DNA of 41,197 nt, taken from a virus. Each line of letters opens with the position of its first letter. Within the stretch, counting starts at the first letter, position 1. The notes beneath the pieces were generated by a model that was given only the letters and a program-made list of their open reading frames with translations, searched no databases and was not told where the DNA came from. A program made the position numbers and the translations under genes. Positions 1 through 11,235 of the stretch are shown here, piece by piece. Where the stretch lies: positions 1-41,197 of the IMG/VR virus record IMGVR_UViG_3300048585_000168; one strand, given 5' to 3'.

Positions 1-621
1 ATCTGCGCCGCCTCGTACCTCGATTGGAGTCGGAACGAGCTGCCCGCCGTCCGCGATCAGCCGTACCGTGAGGTGTACGCGTCAGTGAACAAGCACGTCA
101 AGTACATGGGGCGGTACGCCACCATGAAGCTGCTTGAAGTCCTCTACCAAGCCGAGATGATCAAGTACCCACAGGACACCATGGTCCCGCGCGACGGCAA
201 GTTCCCCCGGCGCACGATGGCGTTGCTGATGCCAGAGCATGCAGAGATGTTGAAAGGTACGCGCCAGGAGGACGAAGTGGACGCACTCTGCGAGCGGATT
301 CGTTCTTCGATGTCGACCAGGATCGGCATGGAGATCAGTTGGTTCCAAATCGAGACCATGCTCTGCATCTATCGTCAATCGCTGAAGGGCAAGTACCCAA
401 GCGGCCGCCACGACAGTGAGCTTGGTCATTGGATGAGCGTGATGAACGCGGTCAACCCCGCAGTAGCAGAGGAACTGATTGCGCAGTTCCCGTTCAGCGA
501 TCTCCGACGTGATCTGTACCCTCAACATCTGCTCGGCGAATGGAACGAACCGCAGTGGTTCGGCATTCGTCCTGAGTTGGAAGAAACACGGAAGGCGGAG
601 ATGGATGCCATCTTCAACTGA
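1..621 (+). CDS. alpha-glutamyl/putrescinyl thymine pyrophosphorylase-like protein (5' truncated)
   Basis: The reading frame is open from the first base of the window, so the gene is cut at its 5' end; 206 codons remain. A GTG at 73 is only an internal candidate start. The segment YMGRYATMKLLE (window codons 35-46) and especially ETMLCIYRQSLKGKYPSG (codons 118-135) resemble the C-terminal conserved block of the aGPT-PPlase clade found in phages that hypermodify thymine. Those enzymes are proposed to install amino acids or polyamines on phosphorylated 5-hydroxymethyl-dU in DNA. The kinase gene at 1690-2445, also of a hypermodification family, supports this reading. The next gene overlaps it by 17 bases. 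The family call is from remembered motif shape, not a search. The alternative is an unrelated phage protein with a similar helical C-terminus. Confidence 0.55.
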   Translation: MCAASYLDWSRNELPAVRDQPYREVYASVNKHVKYMGRYATMKLLEVLYQAEMIKYPQDTMVPRDGKFPRRTMALLMPEHAEMLKGTRQEDEVDALCERIRSSMSTRIGMEISWFQIETMLCIYRQSLKGKYPSGRHDSELGHWMSVMNAVNPAVAEELIAQFPFSDLRRDLYPQHLLGEWNEPQWFGIRPELEETRKAEMDAIFN

Positions 622-1057
622 GTGCGATATCTACGCCAGAGATTCTCACGGCCGCGTGACTGACCGGGTTCGACGTGATTACGCGAACCGAGACCTTCTC
701 CACAGAGTGTGGTCTGAACTTCATGGCAAGCCGTGGCCCACTGGAATGATCATCTGCCACACTTGCGATGAGCACCGGTGCAGCAATCCAGAGCACATCT
801 TCCCTGGCACGTACCAGGACAATGCGAAAGACATGTACAACAAAGGCCGAGCTGCTGGCGCAATTCACGGCGCCGGTGAGAGGCATCGATTCGCAAAGTT
901 GACTCAGACGCAAGTTGATGAGATCAAATTGCGCAAGGCCGCTGGTGAAACGCTCTCATCGATGGAGAAAGAATACGGTGTTGGCGCTTCGCAACTCAGC
1001 CGAATTGTTAACGGGAAACGATGGAATGGAGTACCGCGTGCCATGGCAACTACGTGA
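605..1057 (+). CDS. HNH homing endonuclease with C-terminal HTH
   Basis: This is a 150-residue free-standing HNH endonuclease. The centre of the protein has the typical metal/nuclease block ICHTCDEHRCSNPEHIF followed by GTYQDNAKDM. The C-terminal third (TQTQVDEIKL...YGVGASQLSRIVNGKRW) is a helix-turn-helix of the kind that reads DNA in phage HNH enzymes. I chose ATG 605 because GGCGGAG lies just upstream. It overlaps the end of the preceding gene by 17 bases, in another frame. Such genes are usually mobile selfish elements inserted between phage genes. Base composition looks more A-rich than its neighbours, which fits independent arrival. No intron is visible around it. Confidence 0.85.
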   Translation: MPSSTECDIYARDSHGRVTDRVRRDYANRDLLHRVWSELHGKPWPTGMIICHTCDEHRCSNPEHIFPGTYQDNAKDMYNKGRAAGAIHGAGERHRFAKLTQTQVDEIKLRKAAGETLSSMEKEYGVGASQLSRIVNGKRWNGVPRAMATT

Positions 1058-1469
1058 CAATCTGTACCTGGCGGCCATGCCGAAGCCGGCTCATCTTGAC
1101 AAGCACGGCTGGACCAACATCGGTCTGTTGACGCTCTGCCCCAAGGCGCCGCCGAACGAAGTCCTGATGGACAACCGAGTCGAATGGTGGAAGCACATGG
1201 CGATGCCAGACGGTCAGATCAAGGACCTCGACCATATCTGGCTCGCCCGTGACACGGCGTTGACGATGCACGCACAGGGGTTGACAACGATCATCCACTG
1301 CATGGCCGGACGCAATCGGTCTGGTCTCATCGGCGCACTCGTGCTCCAGCAGATCGAGAACCTGTCTGGACCAGAAGCACTCGAACGGATACGCGTGTTG
1401 CGTCCCCGTTCAGTTGACAACATTCACTTTGAGGACTTCCTCATGAGCCTCGGGAGGCCACACCCATGA
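1026..1469 (+). CDS. dual-specificity-type protein phosphatase
   Basis: The 147-residue protein contains the cysteine phosphatase P-loop HCMAGRNRSG at residues 91-100. This is HC-x5-R, with catalytic Cys92 and Arg98. The N-terminal strand DNLYLAAMPK and the following variable loop resemble compact dual-specificity phosphatases. The DGQIKD segment (62-67) is a plausible place for the general acid. Its substrate cannot be told from sequence. It could act on a phosphoprotein, or on a phosphorylated nucleotide or DNA intermediate, since a P-loop kinase lies two genes downstream. ATG 1026 overlaps the HNH gene end; GGGA upstream is a weak ribosome site. Its stop overlaps the next start (ATGA). Confidence 0.75.
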   Translation: MEYRVPWQLRDNLYLAAMPKPAHLDKHGWTNIGLLTLCPKAPPNEVLMDNRVEWWKHMAMPDGQIKDLDHIWLARDTALTMHAQGLTTIIHCMAGRNRSGLIGALVLQQIENLSGPEALERIRVLRPRSVDNIHFEDFLMSLGRPHP

Positions 1470-1693
1470 AGTCACAGTACCGAACCTTCGTCAACGGACG
1501 TTGGCGCACTGAGATGCAGATCAATCTCAGTGAGTACTACGACGAGGACATCATGAGCCGGATCGTCTGGTGGCGCGAGCACGACAACATGTCGTGGCGC
1601 GAGATTCATTCGAAGATCTATCTCGACACCGGCTACCGAGTCGCATCAACGACGCTCGCTCGGTGGATGTCATACGAACGGAACGGGCGATGA
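1466..1693 (+). CDS. small helix-turn-helix protein
   Basis: This is a 75-residue protein. The segment MSWREIHSKIYLDTGYRVASTTLARWM (about residues 42-68) reads as a helix-turn-helix: a first helix, a turn around Gly-Tyr, and a recognition helix rich in Ser/Thr/Arg. The N-terminal 30 residues are polar and without a known motif. It starts within the stop of the phosphatase gene (ATGA) and ends within the start of the kinase gene (ATGA), so it is translationally coupled to both. A DNA-binding regulator or a site-recognition partner of the modification enzymes is possible, but no function is assigned. Confidence 0.6.
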   Translation: MKSQYRTFVNGRWRTEMQINLSEYYDEDIMSRIVWWREHDNMSWREIHSKIYLDTGYRVASTTLARWMSYERNGR

Positions 1694-2445
1694 TCATCAA
1701 CGTACGAGGTTCGTCGTGCAGCGGCAAGTCGACGAACATCTATCGGCTGCTCAGTGAGTACCCCAGCACGCAGGTCTGGGAGCGCACCGGATGGAACAAG
1801 AAGAAGCCCCGCTGCGTCGGGCACCTGCTGCCTGGCGGTCTGTTCATCGTCGGTCCGTATCTGCCAGGCGCGAAGACTGGCGGGATGGACATGCTGATGC
1901 CCGGCAAGACGGAACTGGTCACGCTCTGGCTTGAGCGGAATTGCCAGCGGTACCCACACGTCGTCTTCGAGTCGATGATGGCGTCACTGGCCATCGGTCG
2001 CTACCACGAGTTGCGCAAGCGGTTGGGTCCTCCGGGCACGATCAAATTCGGCTTCATGGATACACCGCTTGAAGTCTGCCGCGAGCGCATCCGTGCTCGT
2101 ACGGGCGGACGCGGTCCCACCGGCAAGGGCATCAACGAGGCAGCGACCGTCGACCATCAGTGGAAGCGCGTTCGACAGATTCGCGAGCGCCTCGAAGAGC
2201 GACACGAAGTGTGCTTCACGCTCCCGTATGAGGCCGCGTACGAAACGTTGTTGGCCGAACTCCTGACCGGCGGATGGGACCCCATGTCGACGCCTCCGTC
2301 AGCGCACGAGAAGGTCAAACCGCGCTACTCACTTCAGGATGTCAAGGACGAGCTCACCAACGTCGGCTACCCAGATGACGACGAAGATCGCAACAAGCGG
2401 TTCGCAGCCGAGTTGGTCAAGCACGCAGACAAGTTCCCGACATGA
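1690..2445 (+). CDS. P-loop nucleotide/DNA kinase of the thymine-hypermodification type
   Basis: The protein has 251 residues. A clear Walker A, GSSCSGKST, occupies residues 7-15 right after a short N-terminal strand. Three further blocks, FIVGPYLPGAKTGGMD (52-67), VVFESMMASLAIGRY (91-105) and MDTPLEVCRERI (123-134), are the signature pattern I associate with phage kinases adjoining hypermodification genes, including 5-hydroxymethyl-dU DNA kinases. The LDTPLEVC-like block is the lid/sugar-binding part of deoxynucleoside-kinase-like folds. In such pathways the kinase phosphorylates 5-hydroxymethyl-dU in DNA before the pyrophosphorylase-like enzyme acts. The start at ATG 1690 overlaps the previous stop. 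A role as a dNMP kinase for precursor supply is the main alternative. Confidence 0.75.
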   Translation: MIINVRGSSCSGKSTNIYRLLSEYPSTQVWERTGWNKKKPRCVGHLLPGGLFIVGPYLPGAKTGGMDMLMPGKTELVTLWLERNCQRYPHVVFESMMASLAIGRYHELRKRLGPPGTIKFGFMDTPLEVCRERIRARTGGRGPTGKGINEAATVDHQWKRVRQIRERLEERHEVCFTLPYEAAYETLLAELLTGGWDPMSTPPSAHEKVKPRYSLQDVKDELTNVGYPDDDEDRNKRFAAELVKHADKFPT

Positions 2446-4578: not shown

Positions 4579-5384
4579 CCAGCATCGACTTCGGCCAATT
4601 GATGAAGGAGGCCGGCGAAGGGTTCCAGCCGGTTCCCTCAGGCCCGTACAACGTTCAACTCGTGAAGGCCGAGGCAGTCACCTCGGGCACGGGCAAGCCG
4701 ATGATCAAGGTGCGCCTGCAGATCATCGGCGGTCCGCACGACGGTCGTCAACTCTTCGACCAGTTCGTCATCACGGCCGGCAACCCGACCGCACTGTCGT
4801 TCTTCTTCGAGCACATGGCGGCGTTCGGTCTCGACCGTTCGTTCTTCGCGTCCAACCCGCCGCTCGACGGCGTGGCCGCGACGCTCATCGGCAGGCAGGC
4901 ACTCGTCTCCGTCGGCATCAAGCAGTACAAGGGTGCGGATCGTAACGAGGTCCAATCGTACAACGCCATCGCTGGTGGTCAGGTCGGCGGCATCGGTCCG
5001 TCTGCCGCTGCTGGTCCTGGACCCGCCACGATGGTTCCGCAGGCAGTGCCTCCTGTGGCCGCTGCTCCCGCTCCGGCGCCCGTCGCACCTGTGGCTGCAC
5101 CAGTCGCACCGGCCGCTGTGACCCCGCCGCCCGCCGCAATCGTTCCGCCCCCAGTGGCACCAGTCGCTGCACCTGTTCCGCCGCAGGTCGCAGCCCCGGT
5201 ACCGGAGCAGCAGGTTCCCGCCCCTGTCGCTCCGGTACCGGAACCTCCTGCCGCGGTTGCGCCGGCCCCGGCCCCGGCACCCGTTGCGCCGGTCCAAGAG
5301 GTCGCACCCGCACCGGCTGCTCCCGCCCCGGCCGTCGCTCCGGCTCCCGCCGCTCCGGCGCACGTTGACGAAGAGCCGTTCTGA
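4575..5384 (+). CDS. SSB-like ssDNA-binding protein with Pro/Ala tail
   Basis: The 269-residue protein has two parts. Residues 1 to about 145 are beta-rich and resemble phage DUF669/SSB-like OB-fold proteins (PSGPYNVQLVKAEAV, IKVRLQIIGGPHDGRQLFDQFVI). Residues about 146-262 are almost only Pro, Ala and Val, a long flexible linker. The last residues HVDEEPF form an acidic tip ending in Pro-Phe, as in bacterial SSB tails (DDDIPF type) that recruit repair proteins. It lies directly after the Sak4-like gene, the usual pairing of recombinase and SSB. The high-GC repetitive linker DNA produces long arginine-rich open frames on the other strand that are not genes. Confidence 0.75.
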   Translation: MTSIDFGQLMKEAGEGFQPVPSGPYNVQLVKAEAVTSGTGKPMIKVRLQIIGGPHDGRQLFDQFVITAGNPTALSFFFEHMAAFGLDRSFFASNPPLDGVAATLIGRQALVSVGIKQYKGADRNEVQSYNAIAGGQVGGIGPSAAAGPGPATMVPQAVPPVAAAPAPAPVAPVAAPVAPAAVTPPPAAIVPPPVAPVAAPVPPQVAAPVPEQQVPAPVAPVPEPPAAVAPAPAPAPVAPVQEVAPAPAAPAPAVAPAPAAPAHVDEEPF

Positions 5385-5788
5385 TGTCGAACTTCAGAGA
5401 CGTTGGGGACTTCCATCGGAAGTTCGATCTGCCGGCATCAGACCACCACGCTGGTCCGAAGAACGTCACGCGCGAGTTGCTCGACTTCCGCGTCAAGTTC
5501 ATGCACGAAGAACTCACCGAGTTCATGGTGGCCGCGGACAACAGCGACATCGCCGGCATGGCAGACGCGTTGATCGACCTCGTCTACGTGGCGATGGGCA
5601 CTGCCCACGTCTACGGGTTCCCGTGGCAGGCCCTCTGGGAAGAGGTCCAACGCGCGAACATGGCGAAGGAGCGAGCGACGCATGAGAGTCAGTCCACTCG
5701 CCTGTCGACGTTCGACGTGGTGAAGCCGGAAGGTTGGCAGCCACCGGCGATCGCTGAGATTCTCGAATCGTACGGGTTCGAACTGTGA
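5384..5788 (+). CDS. MazG-like nucleotide pyrophosphohydrolase
   Basis: The 134-residue all-helical protein has the acidic metal-binding pattern of MazG/PRA-PH enzymes: HEELTEFMVA (Glu42, Glu43, Glu46) followed by MADALIDLVYVAMG (Asp61, Asp65). Such enzymes hydrolyse (d)NTPs to (d)NMPs and pyrophosphate. Next to ThyX this could convert dUTP or another host dNTP into a monophosphate substrate, or remove an unmodified nucleotide from the pool. The ATG at 5384 overlaps the SSB-like stop by one base (TGATG), and its stop overlaps the ThyX start. The C-terminal 40 residues carry no recognised motif. Confidence 0.75.
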   Translation: MSNFRDVGDFHRKFDLPASDHHAGPKNVTRELLDFRVKFMHEELTEFMVAADNSDIAGMADALIDLVYVAMGTAHVYGFPWQALWEEVQRANMAKERATHESQSTRLSTFDVVKPEGWQPPAIAEILESYGFEL

Positions 5789-6918
5789 CCAGCGCCGTCG
5801 TCATTACCGATTCCATCTCACCAGACGGTCATCGTGTGACGACGATGGAAGTCACGATGCACAGGTTCGTGCTCGCCGAGTTCAACACGCACCGCGTGTT
5901 CAGCAGGAACTCGGCGAGCTCACGAGCCATCCCCATCTCACGCACGCTCGAGAGTGTCAAGCAAGAGCCAGCATTCCCGATCTATTGGGGCGCAGAGAAA
6001 CCTGGCATGCAGTCAGGTGAGGAACTCGATGGCATGGACCTGCACGCCGCTGAGACGTTGTTCCGTGAGGTTCGATCGTCCACGATCGCGTACATCGAGC
6101 AGTACCTTCTCTCAGCGGGTGATACACGACTTCACAAGTCGGTCCTCAACCGTCTTCTGGAGCCGTTCCTCTGGCACAAGGTGATCGTCACGTCAACCGA
6201 GTGGGAGAACTTCTTCGGTCTCCGTTGTCATCCGATGGCGCAGCCTGAGATTCGAGTGGCTGCCGAGTTGATGAGGGATGAGTACGAGCGTTCGACGCCG
6301 AAGCAGTTGGATTGGGGCGAATGGCACGCACCGTACGCCAACCCAAATGGCGCGCACCAGTGGGATCTTGAAACCGCGCTGAAGACATCTGCCGCTCGGT
6401 GCGCTTGGGTGTCCACGGTCAACCACGACGGTGAGCACTCGTGGGAGGCCATCGAGCGGATGTACGATCGGCTGTCGTCTGCAGAGCCGATGCACGCCAG
6501 TCCGTTCGAGCATCAGTGCACTCCAGGTGATGGTCCTGGCAACTTCCGTGGTTGGCAGCAGCTTCGTCACATGCTCGAGAAGGGCAAGCCTCCATGGGAA
6601 GTCGGAGTGCGCAAGGGTGGCGCATACGGAGGTTCAAACGGAGGAGTCGTAGTGATCGAGTACGACGTCCCAGAGAGTCCGAGTCGACTCGGTCGTGAAG
6701 GCGACACTCAGCCAATGCCAGTACCGAGTGGCGCGCCCATCGCTCATCGGATGGTCCAGGATGACCTCGAAGAGCGATTGAAGATCGGCATCGAACGGTA
6801 CGGTCAGCCACTGCAAGCATTCAACGGGCGTGATAGCCTGCGGGACGCATACGAAGAAGTACTCGACCTCGCGGTGTATCTCCGCAACGCGATCTACGAA
6901 CAGGAGAACACCAGGTGA
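5785..6918 (+). CDS. thyX: ThyX thymidylate synthase fused to a MazG-like domain
   Basis: The 377-residue protein is a flavin-dependent thymidylate synthase with an added C-terminal domain. The ThyX signature is EFNTHRVFSRNSASSRA (residues 32-48), matching xHRxxSxNxxSxR; the first Arg of the textbook RHR is Thr. GNFRGWQQLRHML (about 252-264) is the C-terminal ThyX block. After a linker, residues about 322-370 (EERLKIGIERYGQPLQAFNGRD...YEEVLDLAVYLRNAI) form a second acidic helical unit of the dNTP pyrophosphohydrolase type, with Glu329, Glu330, Glu357, Glu358 and Asp361. ThyX normally makes dTMP from dUMP with methylene-THF and FAD; a hydroxymethylating variant is possible given the neighbouring modification genes. 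Both ends overlap neighbours by four bases. Confidence 0.85.
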   Translation: MTSAVVITDSISPDGHRVTTMEVTMHRFVLAEFNTHRVFSRNSASSRAIPISRTLESVKQEPAFPIYWGAEKPGMQSGEELDGMDLHAAETLFREVRSSTIAYIEQYLLSAGDTRLHKSVLNRLLEPFLWHKVIVTSTEWENFFGLRCHPMAQPEIRVAAELMRDEYERSTPKQLDWGEWHAPYANPNGAHQWDLETALKTSAARCAWVSTVNHDGEHSWEAIERMYDRLSSAEPMHASPFEHQCTPGDGPGNFRGWQQLRHMLEKGKPPWEVGVRKGGAYGGSNGGVVVIEYDVPESPSRLGREGDTQPMPVPSGAPIAHRMVQDDLEERLKIGIERYGQPLQAFNGRDSLRDAYEEVLDLAVYLRNAIYEQENTR

Positions 6919-8159
6919 CGATCAAGTTCATCTCATGCCAGACCTTCGCTGGCGGCTTCGACATGGGAGCCACCCAGGCTGGCATGCAGATGATCCACAA
7001 GGTGGAGAACGTCGGCGGGTTCGGCATCCCGAATGTGGACGCACAACGTCATCTGCTCGGTGAGCAGTGGCGGTGGCAAGCTGAAGAACCAACTGGTTGG
7101 GAGCCGATGGACGCTGAGATCGTCATCGGTAACCCGCCGTGCAGTGGCTTCAGCGTGGCGTCCAACAAGGACTTCCGCGGAGCAGACAGCCCGATCAACC
7201 GCTGCATGTGGGACTTCGTCGACTACGTGGCCAAGGTGATGCCACAGGTCGCTGCATTCGAGAGCGTGGTCCCAGCCTTCAGTCGCGAAGACGGACGCAA
7301 GCTGATGCGAGACCTCCGTGAGTACCTCGAGGCGATCACCGGCATCCAATGGAACCTCACGCACGTCAAGCACGACGCCGCTGCCGTCGGAGGATCGTGC
7401 ACTCGGCGACGGTACTTCTGGGTCGCGCACCGCGTACCGTTCCGAGTGGATCACACTCCGGCGCCGCTGACCACATGGCACGACGCGATCCAGGACCTCA
7501 TCAATCTCGATGCGACCTCGTGGCAGTGGCAGCCGTACGACGCTACCCGTCCACCGACCGCGTGGGCAGCAGAGCATGTCCGTACACCGCAAGGAATGTT
7601 CGACCCGCCTGGTGGCACTGACGGGCACTGGGCGCCAGACTTCAGTGACAAGCGCGGCACCAGGATCAAGGTGCTGTTGGAAGAGGAGAATTGGGGTCCG
7701 GGCGAGACGTACGAAGTCGTTCTCAAGCGCCGATGCGAACGAATGGGAGGGCATCCAGGTGAACCGTGGACAGCCGACGAGATCACTCATCATCGCGACA
7801 AGCGCCAGTGGCAGTCCGGCTACTTCCCCATCATCCGATGGAAGGCAGACAAGCCAGGTCACGTCATCTACGGAGGCGCGATCAACAACGTCATGCATCC
7901 GTATCTTCCGAGGCGAATCACGCACCGTGAAGTTGCTCGCGCTATGGGATTCCCAGACAATTGGCGCATTGCTCCCCTTGAGCACGACAAGGGACTCAAG
8001 GACTACTGGGGCAAGGGTGTGACGGTTCAGTGCGGCGAATGGATTGGGAGATACCTCAAACTTGCCGTCGAGGGCTCAGTCGATGATCTTCCTCCCGGCA
8101 AGGCAGTAGGCGACCGAGAATTTCTATACGAAGTCAAACCCGGCAAGGTCAAGAAATGA
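6915..8159 (+). CDS. DNA cytosine-C5 methyltransferase
   Basis: The 414-residue protein shows the ordered motifs of the C5-cytosine methyltransferase family. Motif I is TFAGGFDMGATQAGM (10-24). Motif IV is GNPPCSGFS (72-80), with catalytic Cys76. Motif VI is FESVVP, where the usual ENV is ESV but Glu116 is kept. Motif VIII is SCTRRRYFWVAHR (161-173). Motif IX/X includes RRITHREVARAMGFPDNW and WGKGVTVQCGEWIGRYL near the end. The stretch between VIII and IX, about 150 residues, is the likely target-recognition domain. It may protect phage DNA from host restriction. No partner restriction enzyme is seen, so it looks like an orphan methyltransferase. It follows thyX with a four-base overlap. Confidence 0.85.
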   Translation: MTIKFISCQTFAGGFDMGATQAGMQMIHKVENVGGFGIPNVDAQRHLLGEQWRWQAEEPTGWEPMDAEIVIGNPPCSGFSVASNKDFRGADSPINRCMWDFVDYVAKVMPQVAAFESVVPAFSREDGRKLMRDLREYLEAITGIQWNLTHVKHDAAAVGGSCTRRRYFWVAHRVPFRVDHTPAPLTTWHDAIQDLINLDATSWQWQPYDATRPPTAWAAEHVRTPQGMFDPPGGTDGHWAPDFSDKRGTRIKVLLEEENWGPGETYEVVLKRRCERMGGHPGEPWTADEITHHRDKRQWQSGYFPIIRWKADKPGHVIYGGAINNVMHPYLPRRITHREVARAMGFPDNWRIAPLEHDKGLKDYWGKGVTVQCGEWIGRYLKLAVEGSVDDLPPGKAVGDREFLYEVKPGKVKK

Positions 8160-8590
8160 CTAGCTACCGCGAAGTATTCTTTGCACACAGTGGGAAAGGT
8201 CCGTGGCCGTGTTACGGATGTGGTGAACCTGTTGATCTGAGTGAAGTGCATGTGCACCACATCGACCACGACCACTTCAATGACGCTCCCGAGAATCTCA
8301 CAGCGATGCACTCTCTATGCCACCAGAAGCTGCATAAGATCGGTAAATCCCATTCAGATGAGACCAGACAGAAGATGTCATCGACGCGCAGAGGGAGATC
8401 ACTCTCAGATGAGGCCAGAGCGAGGCTCAGTGCTTCAACGCGCGGGAAACCGAAGAGTGAAGAACACAAGGCTGCTCTAAGTAGATCGCTCCGTGGGCGT
8501 AAACTCGCCCCGCTGAGCGAGGAACATCGGCGACGAATCGGTGATGCGAAACGACTATGGTGGGCACAACAGAAGGAGAAAGTCTCGTGA
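8156..8590 (+). CDS. HNH endonuclease with NUMOD3 repeats (second paralogue)
   Basis: The 144-residue protein has an HNH core (PWPCYGCGEPV, VHVHHIDHDHFNDAPENL, CHQKLHK). Four NUMOD3-like repeats follow, around SHSDETRQKMSSTRRG, SLSDEARARLSASTRG, PKSEEHKAALSRSLRG and PLSEEHRRRIGDAK. It is paralogous to the endonuclease at 2442-2819 but has one more repeat. It starts inside the methyltransferase stop (ATGA) and its stop overlaps the GTG of the next gene. It is probably a mobile homing endonuclease; no intron or intein is visible at the junctions. Confidence 0.85.
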   Translation: MTSYREVFFAHSGKGPWPCYGCGEPVDLSEVHVHHIDHDHFNDAPENLTAMHSLCHQKLHKIGKSHSDETRQKMSSTRRGRSLSDEARARLSASTRGKPKSEEHKAALSRSLRGRKLAPLSEEHRRRIGDAKRLWWAQQKEKVS

Positions 8591-8835
8591 CGACCCGTGA
8601 TGGAATTGGAGCGCCGCGACGCAAGGACGTGGTTGAGCGCGACAAGAAGGCCCTTGACCTGATCCAACAGCGTGACGCCGAAGGCCTTTGTACTCGGCTC
8701 GCCGACATCCGACGAATCCTCGATCCGTCGTTGAGTCGCAGCCAGGTCTTCTACGTCATGAAGCGTTTGGAGCGCGATGGGCACATCGAGCGCCGAAGCG
8801 GGTACCTTTGGTGCCTAGTCTCAGCCACTGAGTGA
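8587..8835 (+). CDS. small winged-helix DNA-binding protein
   Basis: The 82-residue protein reads as a winged helix. A helix (DKKALDLIQQRDAEGLCTRLADIRRIL) is followed by the helix-turn-helix SLSRSQVFYVMKRLERDGHIERR and a short wing ending SGYLWCLV, like MarR/PadR-type folds. I chose GTG 8587 because it overlaps the TGA of the preceding gene (GTGA), the coupling used throughout this operon. It is the last plus-strand gene before the convergent late operon, so it could be a transcriptional regulator, but no target site is identified. Confidence 0.65.
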   Translation: MTTRDGIGAPRRKDVVERDKKALDLIQQRDAEGLCTRLADIRRILDPSLSRSQVFYVMKRLERDGHIERRSGYLWCLVSATE

Positions 8836-8856
8836 CCACCTCTCACACTTAAGGGG

Positions 8857-9210
8857 TTACGCTGGGGTCCAGTCCGTCGAGGGGTCGTAGGACACGAGAA
8901 TCGTTCCACTCGTAACGTTCGCTGAAACGGGTCCAGTCACTGACGTTGAGCCACTGACACCGATGCCATCAAAGGTACCTACGCCGGAGATGACGAATGC
9001 GACGTCAAGTGTTCCTGGTTGCACCAATGTGCACGGAAACGATGCCGTACCTGAGAAGAGATGTTCAACAAGCGTGGGGCCGCCTGTGACGATGAGTCCG
9101 CCAGTCATCAGCGCGAAGCTGTTGGGGCTGTTTCCTATGCCGGCAGCACCGAGAATCTTCGCCTGCCCGTATACAGGCTGCAGCGGACGAAGACGTTGAT
9201 TGCGACTCAT
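8857..9210 (-). CDS. putative tail-tip/virion protein (last gene of late operon)
   Basis: The 117-residue protein starts at ATG 9210, which overlaps the TGA of the upstream gene (ATGA). The N-terminus is basic (MSRNQRLRPLQPVYGQAKILGA). The rest is rich in Gly, Ser, Thr and Val and looks like an all-beta domain with repeated short strands (GGLIVTGGPTLVEHLF, SGVGTFDGIGVSGSTSVTG). It belongs to the tail-tip/adhesion end of the operon, but no family is recognised. It converges on the plus-strand operon with only 21 bp between the two stop codons, and no clear terminator hairpin lies there. Confidence 0.6.
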   Translation of the reverse strand: MSRNQRLRPLQPVYGQAKILGAAGIGNSPNSFALMTGGLIVTGGPTLVEHLFSGTASFPCTLVQPGTLDVAFVISGVGTFDGIGVSGSTSVTGPVSANVTSGTILVSYDPSTDWTPA

Positions 9211-9983
9211 GGTCCGAACATCATTGCGTTGTAGAGAAGTGAACGTTGCGTCAGATTCAACTTCCCTGCGTGGAATGAGAGTTTGCCGATCCGCCACTCA
9301 TCAGCGCGACCTTGAAGGTTTGGGTGGTCAGAGAATGAACCAATTGTGAAGAATTGATTCGGTACTGTCAAGGTTGCGAATGTGCCGTCACCACTTGCGG
9401 TCCAACTGGCTCGTCTGACTGCTTCGTCGTTAACCCAAAGCCCGCTGTCAACGTCAGTGCCAGGAGTCATCACAATTTGCGTCCATGTGTCTGTAGGAAT
9501 ATCAGACGTCCACCAGCTAAAGTCAGCACTCGCGCCACCGCCACTACTTGCGCTGCGTTTGTAAATAGTTGGTTGGTTGGCACCGCTTACGCCTGAGTGC
9601 ACAACCCAATTGGCCCCACTACCGCCGACACTGCGCATCCATTCCGGATCAGTTATGCTTGATGGTGCTGCTGTGTATTGCATCGGCGCAAACATGATCG
9701 ATTGGTTGTACCCACTACCAGAGAACGTGATCGGGCTGCACTTGAGCCAGAACACAATGCTCATGTTGTTGAGAACGGTGTTGTACGTTCTGTCGTAGAA
9801 GATGTTCGGAGAGAGTACAGGCGCTACTTGGAACGCTTTGTAGTCGGGGCTCACGTCGCCATGCACAACGAGGCAATCATCTCCGTTCGGCATTTCACCT
9901 GCGCCGATGCTGAAGAAGTCGTGTGCATCAGGAACGAACAGTGGAACGCCGATGATTTCTTCTGGGATGGTGTAGCTTGCCAT
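9207..9983 (-). CDS. LamG/concanavalin-like tail protein
   Basis: The 258-residue protein resembles a LamG/concanavalin A-like jelly roll. NNMSIVFWLKCSP is an inner strand. DTWTQIVMTPG followed by DSGLWVNDEAVRRASWT is the typical 'W-x-h-V, then h-x-V-N/D-G' pattern. FTIGSFSDHPNLQGRADEWRIGKLSFHAGKLNLTQ is the usual C-terminal 'G-x-ID-E-h-R-h' ending. Such domains in phage tail-tip proteins bind glycans, so host adsorption is likely. The start at ATG 9983 has AAGGAA upstream. It follows the glycine-rich tail protein, from which it is separated by seven bases. Confidence 0.65.
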   Translation of the reverse strand: MASYTIPEEIIGVPLFVPDAHDFFSIGAGEMPNGDDCLVVHGDVSPDYKAFQVAPVLSPNIFYDRTYNTVLNNMSIVFWLKCSPITFSGSGYNQSIMFAPMQYTAAPSSITDPEWMRSVGGSGANWVVHSGVSGANQPTIYKRSASSGGGASADFSWWTSDIPTDTWTQIVMTPGTDVDSGLWVNDEAVRRASWTASGDGTFATLTVPNQFFTIGSFSDHPNLQGRADEWRIGKLSFHAGKLNLTQRSLLYNAMMFGP

Positions 9984-9990
9984 GAGTTCC

Positions 9991-11235
9991 TTACGGATAT
10001 GGGTATCTGATCTTTACAATACCAGCAGAGCCACTACCCGGCGTGCCAGTACCGCGCGAGCCGCCGCCGCCTGATCCTCTGTTTGCGACAGCGTTGCCGC
10101 CATTACCGTTAGTACCACTGCCACCGTTCCCACCAACGCCGCCACCCGAGCCAGGTGCCGATACACGTGCACCGCCGCCACCGTACGCATACGCGACCCC
10201 ATCATGCCATGTCAATCCAGTGCCGCCTGCACCGCCAACTGATCCTGTCCCGTTGCCACCTGCCACATTCGCACCGCCACCACCACCACCAGAAGGTGTT
10301 GCGCCGCCAAACCCATTCCCGCCATTGTTTCCTCCTGCGCTACCCGAACCGCCTGTGCCGCTTGCTGGCGTCGTCGTTCCGGTACCACCACCACCAGAAC
10401 CTCCTGCGGCCCCATTCACTGTCGACAAACCGATGTGCCCGCCGATGCCACCTCCCAACGCAGTGCTGCCATCAAACGTTGTATTGTTTCCGTTTGTGAC
10501 GGTCAAGCCTGTGACTGCCGCGCCAACTCTTACTTCGCAAACGTCAACGGCAGAGTACCCATCGATAGCGAAGTACTCGCCTGCACCTCCGCCACCACCG
10601 GCGTTGCCAGTACTGTAACGACCGCCAGGTGCGCCGCCAGCGAGGTACAGAACATCAACGGACATTGTGATGTCTGTACCGACGTAGAAGGCCGGCCAAG
10701 CTGAACCCGTCAAGAATGTGTGATAGCGATAGCCACCACTGTCGGTGATTGTTCCGCCGATAGGATCAGCTACCCCGGTTGTGCTGAGTCTCGAACTCCA
10801 GATTGCGCCAATCTCATTGTCGAGCATGTCGTCGTAACTCAATTGCGGACTCAGCCAGTTGTACCACGCATCGAAGTAGTATGAACCAAACGTCCTAGCG
10901 ACATCATCTGCAATGCCAGTGGCGTACGATGGCCATTCTGTATCGATGGGTATCAAGTATTCATCAACCCACGCTTCAACCCAGAACGGACCCCAGCCTG
11001 GCCAATCGTACATACCGTCTACAAGCGCCTCAGCGTATGTCAACCAAATGGGCGGATTCTCAGCACCTGCCGGACTCAGAATTGAGAACCAGAGAGGTCC
11101 GAGCGCGATGACCTCATCGTCGTAATCAGTTCCGGTAAGCGGGAAGCCAGGAGTGTTTCCGACATCGATTGCGCCTTGTTGCTTCACCGAATCGTAAATT
11201 GGCATCAAAGGCGATAGAGCAGTTGTCCACTTCAA
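9991..11235 (-). CDS. minor tail protein with C-terminal glycine-rich domain
   Basis: The 414-residue protein has an N-terminal half (1 to about 180) of ordinary composition, rich in Trp, Tyr and Pro. A glycine-dominated domain (about 200-405) follows with repeated runs such as GGGGGAG, GGSGGGGTG, GGNNGGNGFGG and PSGGGGGGANVAGG. It ends GSAGIVKIRYPYP, the closing strand commonly seen in phage glycine-rich tail domains. Such domains can fold as polyglycine-II bundles, as in receptor-binding adhesins. The start appears to be TTG 11235, overlapping the upstream stop (TTGA). It probably forms part of the tail tip or receptor-binding apparatus. Confidence 0.65.
   Translation of the reverse strand: MKWTTALSPLMPIYDSVKQQGAIDVGNTPGFPLTGTDYDDEVIALGPLWFSILSPAGAENPPIWLTYAEALVDGMYDWPGWGPFWVEAWVDEYLIPIDTEWPSYATGIADDVARTFGSYYFDAWYNWLSPQLSYDDMLDNEIGAIWSSRLSTTGVADPIGGTITDSGGYRYHTFLTGSAWPAFYVGTDITMSVDVLYLAGGAPGGRYSTGNAGGGGGAGEYFAIDGYSAVDVCEVRVGAAVTGLTVTNGNNTTFDGSTALGGGIGGHIGLSTVNGAAGGSGGGGTGTTTPASGTGGSGSAGGNNGGNGFGGATPSGGGGGGANVAGGNGTGSVGGAGGTGLTWHDGVAYAYGGGGARVSAPGSGGGVGGNGGSGTNGNGGNAVANRGSGGGGSRGTGTPGSGSAGIVKIRYPYP

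Follow-up and report, generated by a model that had tools for sequence, protein, structure and literature searches.

Background

In phages M6 and ViI, a kinase and an amino acid:DNA transferase (ADDT) act on 5-hydroxymethyl-dU (5-hmdU) in DNA. To our knowledge, all known amino-acid hypermodifications made via this kinase/ADDT route are on thymine. A thymine hypermodification locus has also been described in Rhodococcus phage Tonitrus (PMC11955845). The locus presented here lies at the left end of a viral stretch of 41,197 b, referred to as the window, and combines a kinase with an ADDT as in the M6 and ViI systems. An earlier note had read it as a base-hypermodification island; both family assignments hold, and the locus is very probably a module which hypermodifies bases in the phage's own DNA.

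Gene content of the locus

As the window spans an entire IMG/VR record, its left end coincides with the end of the contig. The first gene (1-621, + strand) is open at its 5' end and comprises the C-terminal ~206 aa of ADDT, the first ~107 aa lying beyond the contig end. Its initial description as a truncated aGPT-PPlase-like gene is borne out by a match to PF18724 (ADDT, earlier aGPT-PPlase) at 34.7 bits, with a cut-off of 26.2; among the relatives, 6/11 score above the cut-off and the remainder at 24.6-25.2 bits. A scan of viral contigs using the truncated ADDT alone gave zero matches. The window ADDT is 65% identical to the full-length ADDT of the nearest relative, contig L002, and the model of the latter (pLDDT 85) had 8z2n, the 5-PmdU glycinyltransferase gp46 of phage PaMx11, as its top Foldseek match and best PDB match (probability 1.00, TM ~0.46-0.49, E 5e-3). 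Judged by this model, 1-621 is an amino acid:DNA transferase with the fold of the solved 5-PmdU glycinyltransferase.

The P-loop kinase (1690-2445, + strand, frame +1) most likely starts at ATG 1690, giving 251 aa, and not at 1570. All blocks listed for it previously, GSSCSGKST, VGPYLPG, VVFESMMASLAIGRY and MDTPLEVC, were recovered in the ORF. The match to PF18748 (5-hmdU DNA kinase) is below the cut-off of 27 (E = 7e-5, 22.8 bits), while PHROG 800 matches at E = 3e-12. Together with the DTPLEVC motif and the genomic context, the phrog_800 match supports its prediction as a relative of HMUDK, the 5-hydroxymethylpyrimidine-DNA kinase family, despite the Pfam score. Its identity to M6-like phage kinases is 33%. 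A broad kinase profile searched against solved structures gave zero matches. Family, motif and context rule out a dNMP kinase as well as a terminase small subunit, the labels carried in PHROGs and by many records.

Three ORFs between ADDT and the kinase, all on the + strand, were overlooked in the earlier note: a free-standing HNH endonuclease (602-1057, ATG 602; PF13392 27.8 bits, cut-off 24.8; phrog_59 E 1e-17), a DSP/PTP-fold phosphatase (1038-1469) and a 75-aa ORF (1466-1693). The latter had zero Pfam matches and has a 34%-identical counterpart at the same position in L002. ADDT, phosphatase and kinase occur in the same order in 11/11 viral relatives, whose kinases are 69-74% identical to that of the window, which speaks against a chance association. 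In the relatives, no HNH endonuclease separates ADDT from DSP, the window's copy being an insertion at this point, and the ADDT and phosphatase genes of L002 overlap directly.

Downstream of the kinase, and also on the + strand, the MazG-like gene and ThyX were found as previously listed. The former encodes an NTP pyrophosphohydrolase (5384-5788; PF01503 62.8 bits) and is a conserved neighbour, and ThyX (5785-6918) has an extra C-terminal MazG-like helical stretch. Another conserved neighbour, a C5-cytosine DNA methyltransferase (6915-8159, + strand; PF00145 69.5 bits), is kept in those relatives whose contigs extend to the gene. Its retention would fit poorly with a full replacement of C.

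The phosphatase

The phosphatase has alternative starts at 1026 (ATG) and 1038 (GTG), a CX5R loop (CMAGRNR) and a general-acid loop (MPDG). It matched PF00782 at E 3e-7, the Pfam DSPc score of 30.7 bits being slightly under the cut-off of 33.5, and the best Foldseek matches of its AF2 model (pLDDT 93) were PTP/DSP structures. With its CX5R loop, general acid and modelled PTP fold, 1038-1469 is a member of the DSP/PTP superfamily. CX5R and the general-acid Asp were invariant in 13/13 phosphatases, and dN/dS was ~0.15-0.17.

In a scan built from ADDT-linked members, and thus valid for the CxAGRNR subfamily only, ADDT was located upstream of the phosphatase on the same strand, at <=611 b or overlapping, in 20/20 viral loci representing about seven lineages. 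The kinase followed downstream in 16/20, and 0/148 background loci of the same backbone contained any of ADDT, phosphatase or kinase. Generic mycobacteriophage DSPs were considered and set apart from this subfamily; those of Bongo and Rey (CQAGLNRS) are not adjacent to ADDT. A scan of bacterial genomes gave one short partial match, without ADDT. The CxAGRNR phosphatase occurs alongside three hydroxymethyl sources (Asp-type, Asn-type and TET/JBP) and two kinase types, and because these vary among its loci, ADDT is its constant partner. In all likelihood, the phosphatase is a genuine component of the module. The literature searched held no description of it as a conserved third gene.

That it acts as an eraser of phosphomethyl bases is our tentative proposal, with a probability somewhat short of even. 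Between clades, ADDT and phosphatase have diverged in parallel (35-41% and 34-38% identity), in contrast to the kinase (67-80%), so that the substrate of the phosphatase may follow the chemistry of ADDT. The enzyme might then trim phosphate from the moiety attached by ADDT, e.g., a phospho-amine, or make a small-molecule donor, and an inositol-1-phosphate synthase-like protein is indeed encoded in three lineages of phosphatase loci. Such a role is considered less likely than not, as the phosphatase is also present in lineages lacking the inositol-phosphate synthase.

The target base

A gene of the ThyA superfamily (PF00303), predicted to encode a hydroxymethylase, is located ~6.4 kb upstream of ADDT in 3/3 relatives reaching far enough left, a region that would be beyond the end of the window, which stops inside ADDT. 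Base specificity in the ThyA fold follows the rule Asp = cytosine, Asn = uracil (PMC5175136). Asn was found in the SPO1, M6-like and ViI-like enzymes and Asp in T4 gp42 and MilA, and all three relatives showing the enzyme have Asp at this position and not the Asn of the dUMP-type hydroxymethylases of M6 and ViI. The site reads RSSDVWLGMPFDVFQF in the homologues of L004 and L008, with R128 aligned, and the enzyme further has the Ser and Arg that characterise enzymes acting on deoxynucleotides. Its closest solved relative is CMP hydroxymethylase, and in the tree a single starred clade unites the Asn-type enzymes of phages, with the Asp types outside. From these residues, the ThyA homologue of the relatives is most likely a dCMP-type hydroxymethylase. 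A second, independent phage family with ADDT and kinase has an Asp-type hydroxymethylase in 10/10 visible cases. Of the modified thymine suggested earlier, the hypermodification therefore stands, while thymine is doubtful since the ThyA homologues of the relatives carry the cytosine-type Asp. We give cytosine about an even chance of being the target base. Amino-acid hypermodification of a 5-hydroxymethylpyrimidine, with cytosine more likely than thymine, is our preferred reading of the sequences.

Thymine may still be reached indirectly. A dCMP deaminase directly adjoins the hydroxymethylase in the window's clade and is encoded in 12/16 Asp-type contigs, which would make it possible for hmdCMP from the Asp-type enzyme to be converted into hmdUMP, with kinase and ADDT acting on 5-hmdU. 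The 5-HMUDK studied does not phosphorylate 5hmC in DNA (PMC6457204). The kinase of contig L143 shares 44-47% identity with those of hmU-type Bacillus and Lysinibacillus phages, and the kinases have no cytosine signature, as any cytosine-specific residues common to the two Asp-type kinase clades do not exceed those of arbitrary clade pairs. Such a route is roundabout, given that Asn-type enzymes, the direct makers of hmdUMP, are paired with the kinase at 27 loci, and phage dCMP deaminases also commonly serve as a source of dUMP. Moreover, the pairing with an Asp-type enzyme arose in two kinase clades separated by starred branches of the kinase tree. Thymine by this path is rather improbable, and a cytosine target is preferred.

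The Asp-type enzyme could instead be a dCMP methylase, with the hydroxyl for the kinase coming from another source. The dCMP methylase of Xp12 belongs to the same superfamily (PMC5175136), and Asp-type relatives occur in AXL_3 and PW916. The kinase requires a hydroxymethyl substrate and, unlike in L242, no neighbouring gene in the window's clade is annotated as a TET/JBP enzyme, and together with the relationship to CMP hydroxymethylase this makes a methylase highly unlikely.

The earlier note proposed that ThyX, not ThyA, supplied the precursor. Within the window's clade, only the window and L002 encode ThyX, which is thus accessory, and both contigs stop short of the position of the ThyA homologue. 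The window ThyX reaches 33.6 bits with PF02511 (cut-off 24.8; phrog_85 E 1e-64), does not reach the NCBIfam thyX equivalog cut-off and gave only noise against solved structures. Its invariant motif THRxxSRNxxSSRAxP is common to ordinary phages including FoX4 and EM, and on this basis it is probably an ordinary phage thymidylate synthase for dTMP supply. ThyX as the source of a 5-hydroxymethyl precursor of modified thymine, without a ThyA-family enzyme, is very improbable and is rejected in view of the ThyA family upstream, its FoX4-like character and two of the three contigs (52.8 and 62.2 kb), which lack ThyX yet keep kinase and ADDT.

Proposed pathway

A cytosine-directed pathway would begin with the ThyA-family hydroxymethylase, seen in relatives and presumed for the window's phage, making a hydroxymethylpyrimidine at the nucleotide level. 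Because the hydroxymethylase appears to be of dCMP type, the base entering DNA would most likely be 5-hydroxymethylcytosine, and modification would be post-replicative. The kinase would phosphorylate the 5-hydroxymethyl group in DNA, and ADDT, a DNA-glycosylase-like base-handling enzyme, would then swap the phosphate for the amine of an amino acid. Its partner phosphatase most likely strips phosphate from phosphomethyl bases left unconverted by ADDT, and such an eraser or proofreader would spare the phage genome charged, transcription-blocking intermediates. ThyX would supply ordinary dTMP. Gene content and order, families, catalytic motifs and the conserved trio are observed directly, and the enzymatic activities, the cytosine target and what the phosphatase acts on are inferred. 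As a whole, this explanation, from hmC precursor to phosphatase eraser, is one to which we assign even odds. The broader idea of a cytosine-directed branch of amino-acid hypermodification in two unrelated phage families, with a PTP-type phosphatase erasing the phosphomethyl intermediate in the window's family, is offered with less than even confidence.

If true, the cytosine-type pairing in two independent phage families extends the kinase/ADDT route to a second base and predicts new DNA bases. The phosphatase, conserved as a third gene in about seven lineages that obtain the hydroxyl group in three different ways, gives a handle on how phages avoid such intermediates in their own DNA.

Relation to known systems

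Actinomycetia phage DSL-LC01 and Gordonia phages of the GodonK/Sixama type share the gene order dNMP kinase-ThyA(Asp)-dCMP deaminase-PolA with the window's clade. DSL-LC01 additionally shares the order RuvC-helicase-nuclease-RecA, and here the helicase and nuclease genes adjoin with no ADDT-DSP-kinase insert between them, making this an empty site. The dCMP hydroxymethylase of T4 (gp42) and MilA have Asp at the cytosine-specificity site, as do the relatives of the window, but in T4 the hmC is decorated by glucosylation without a kinase or ADDT.

Pseudomonas phage M6/Yuavirus (MP1412) and the Salmonella ViI-like phages likewise combine a hydroxymethylase, a 5-hmdU-family kinase with ~30-33% identity to that of the window, and ADDT, with a hydroxymethylase of the Asn (uracil) type where the window's clade has the Asp type. 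The M6-like and ViI-like loci examined have no DSP, unlike the window's clade, and MP1412 has annotated threonine dehydratase and photolyase-like genes beside the kinase, none of which were recognised in the window's clade. In Tonitrus, ADDT adjoins a P-loop kinase as in the window, and this is the best isolate match of the window ADDT (27% identity); its hydroxyl comes from a TET/JBP enzyme and a DSP is not annotated, whereas the window's clade has one. PaMx11 gp46/PUGT (8z2m, 8z2n), known to use glycine on 5-phosphomethyl-dU, is only 14% identical to the ADDT of the window's clade, yet shares its fold and family.

Gene content of the left end

With high confidence, the left end of the window (the entire IMG/VR record, a linear fragment of 41,197 b) is a hypermodification island. 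The ADDT (amino acid:DNA transferase), kinase, MazG-like, and ThyX genes reported in the earlier note are all there, as is every sequence block it named, while its interpretation proved half right: the island stands, ThyX as precursor enzyme does not, the base is perhaps cytosine, and a third enzyme had been overlooked. The window starts inside the ADDT gene, leaving its C-terminal part (1-621), and continues with a free-standing HNH endonuclease (602-1057), a DSP phosphatase (1038-1469), a 75-aa ORF (1466-1693), the kinase (1690-2445), and a second free-standing HNH endonuclease (2442-2819). PD-(D/E)XK nuclease, RecA-like ATPase, and SSB-like genes follow in that order, then the MazG-like enzyme (5384-5788), ThyX (5785-6918), a C5-cytosine methyltransferase (6915-8159), and a third free-standing HNH endonuclease (8156-8590). 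Terminase, portal, tape-measure, tail, and glycosyltransferase genes of a tailed phage lie in the remainder, most of which is encoded on the minus strand. The first HNH gene sits precisely between ADDT and phosphatase, whereas these two overlap directly in the nearest relative, L002.

Profile searches bore out both assignments of the earlier note. ADDT exceeds the Pfam cut-off despite truncation, and the predicted structure of its full-length L002 homologue (mean pLDDT 85) has its best match in 8z2n (probability 1.00, 14% identity), the structure of gp46, a 5-phosphomethyl-deoxyuridine glycinyltransferase from Pseudomonas phage PaMx11; DNA glycosylases rank next. The kinase, though under the Pfam cut-off for the 5-hmdU DNA kinase family, clearly matches PHROG 800. 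PHROGs (phrog_800), RefSeq phage records, and many GenBank records label this family “terminase small subunit”, probably a propagated error for a hydroxymethylpyrimidine DNA kinase family. Contig L120 has a kinase gene (2175-2894; 54% identity to the kinase of relative L004) between helicase and nuclease, with neither ADDT nor phosphatase at that place, possibly a solo kinase or an earlier stage of the island.

A phosphatase as third enzyme

The gene between ADDT and kinase has a PTP/DSP fold with intact CX5R and general-acid loops; its model (pLDDT 93) matches PTP and DSP structures, and a dN/dS of about 0.15-0.17 shows purifying selection. A profile scan returned 20 viral loci, every one preceded by ADDT on the same strand, with an overlap or a gap of at most 611 b, and 16 with an HMUDK-type kinase downstream. 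Other genes were used to retrieve 148 loci from the same backbone clade, none of which has ADDT, phosphatase, or kinase. The phosphatase is thus very likely the third enzyme of the module. No mention of a phosphatase in such modules was found in the searchable literature, in which coverage of key papers is incomplete.

The kinase keeps 67-80% identity between two sub-clades; ADDT (35-41%) and phosphatase (34-38%) are far more diverged than it or most neighbours, as if the pair had been exchanged or tuned together. The sub-clade with the diverged pair carries an additional HAD-family hydrolase immediately before ADDT (L004 7907-8473, L008 7685-8236), which L002 and L010 lack.

Nine phosphatase loci lie outside the window's clade, and five of them add a helical HMUDK_hel (PF18723) gene: L146 (module at 5688-10603), L236, L237, L240, and L246, the last close to an Asn-type hydroxymethylase. 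Three of these (L146, L237, L240) also encode, upstream, a methyltransferase and an inositol-1-phosphate synthase-like protein, which suggests an inositol-containing DNA modification. L242 carries ParB-like, TET/JBP, ADDT, FkbM-like methyltransferase, DSP, and Ploopntkinase3 (PF18751) genes in a row (6682-11013), so that this phosphatase also occurs in a TET-based module, there with a P-loop kinase that differs from the HMUDK type; the domains were tested in L242, while L243 looks alike and L244 was noted with the same row. Thus, the phosphatase accompanies ADDT whatever the hydroxyl source and whichever the kinase type.

The modified base

Eleven relatives were collected by a kinase scan of viral contigs, and all 11 have ADDT, phosphatase, and kinase in identical order. 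The record holds no DNA left of the window, where the earlier note suggested looking for hydroxymethylase or aminotransferase genes, but three relatives extend far enough left, in the order P-loop dNMP-kinase-like, ThyA-superfamily, dCMP deaminase, PolA, RuvC-like, helicase, HAD hydrolase, ADDT, phosphatase, kinase, with the ThyA gene lying about 6.4 kb before ADDT. In this superfamily a single residue indicates the base, Asn in uracil enzymes and Asp in cytosine enzymes (MilA, BcmA, T4 hydroxymethylase) (PMC5175136). Among solved structures, the L004 enzyme is closest to MilA, a CMP hydroxymethylase, and a scan for the window-clade family gave 80 loci, of Asp type wherever the motif is readable, with kinase plus ADDT only in the window's clade.

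A wider kinase scan found Asn-type enzymes at 27 loci and Asp type outside the clade at one, L143, where ADDT, kinase, a small DUF1599 protein, and ThyA are adjacent. In its family (13 contigs) ADDT always adjoins the kinase, and all 10 visible ThyA enzymes are of Asp type. The 23 Asn-type phage enzymes form a single starred clade with all Asp types outside, in a tree that places two long branches, T4 gp42 and E. coli ThyA, without certainty, and starred branches separate two Asp-type kinase clades. Therefore, on at least two occasions the kinase/ADDT route has come to be combined with cytosine-type enzymes.

Against this, dCMP deaminase, encoded together with the Asp-type enzyme on 12 of 16 contigs, might turn hmdCMP into hmdUMP and so restore a thymine-type target. 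The 5-HMUDK that has been studied leaves 5hmC in DNA unphosphorylated (PMC6457204), Asp-type kinases share no special residues beyond background, and the L143 kinase is 44-47% identical to those of hmU-type Bacillus and Lysinibacillus phages, which stand alongside Asn-type enzymes. The C5-cytosine methyltransferase, kept in the backbone of relatives, also counts against cytosine. The thymine of the earlier note is in doubt, and cytosine has about an even chance of being the modified base in this clade.

Proposed mechanism

Judging from relatives, the pyrimidine would be hydroxymethylated at the nucleotide level and incorporated by PolA, and the hydroxymethyl base would then be phosphorylated in DNA. 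ADDT would transfer an amino acid onto the base, and the phosphatase would clear unreacted phosphomethyl bases, a reasonable role because phosphorylation of hmU templates blocks their transcription in vitro (PMC6457204). The main alternative is a phosphatase whose substrate is the product of ADDT or the donor. No PLP, radical-SAM, or acetyltransferase gene for further tailoring was recognised close to the three genes, which makes a plain amino-acid adduct the guess to start from.

ThyX and comparison with known systems

ThyX as supplier of the modification precursor is very unlikely, given the ThyA gene upstream in relatives, two ThyA-bearing contigs (52.8 and 62.2 kb) without ThyX, and the kinship of the window ThyX with ordinary phage ThyX. 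Because of those two contigs it is regarded as an accessory gene of two members, placed between MazG and methyltransferase; the other member is L002, whose contig begins at dCMP deaminase, just right of the expected ThyA place. The window ThyX has an extra C-terminal MazG-like helical stretch (6600-6918) missing from that of L002. The C5-cytosine methyltransferase beside a cytosine-type hydroxymethylase would mean two C5-acting enzymes in one phage.

The lake metagenome phage DSL-LC01, with predicted hosts in Actinomycetia (PMC10611076), has the backbone of the window's clade, but its helicase gene is directly followed by the nuclease, so that the site of the ADDT-phosphatase-kinase insert is empty there. 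With M6-like phages the window shares its DNA-kinase family, including DTPLEVC and other blocks. In the ThyA-superfamily alignment, the window's clade has Asp like T4 gp42, unlike SPO1 gp29, MP1412, a ViI-like kuttervirus, a Klebsiella taipeivirus, and Rhizobium phage TM26, all of which have Asn.
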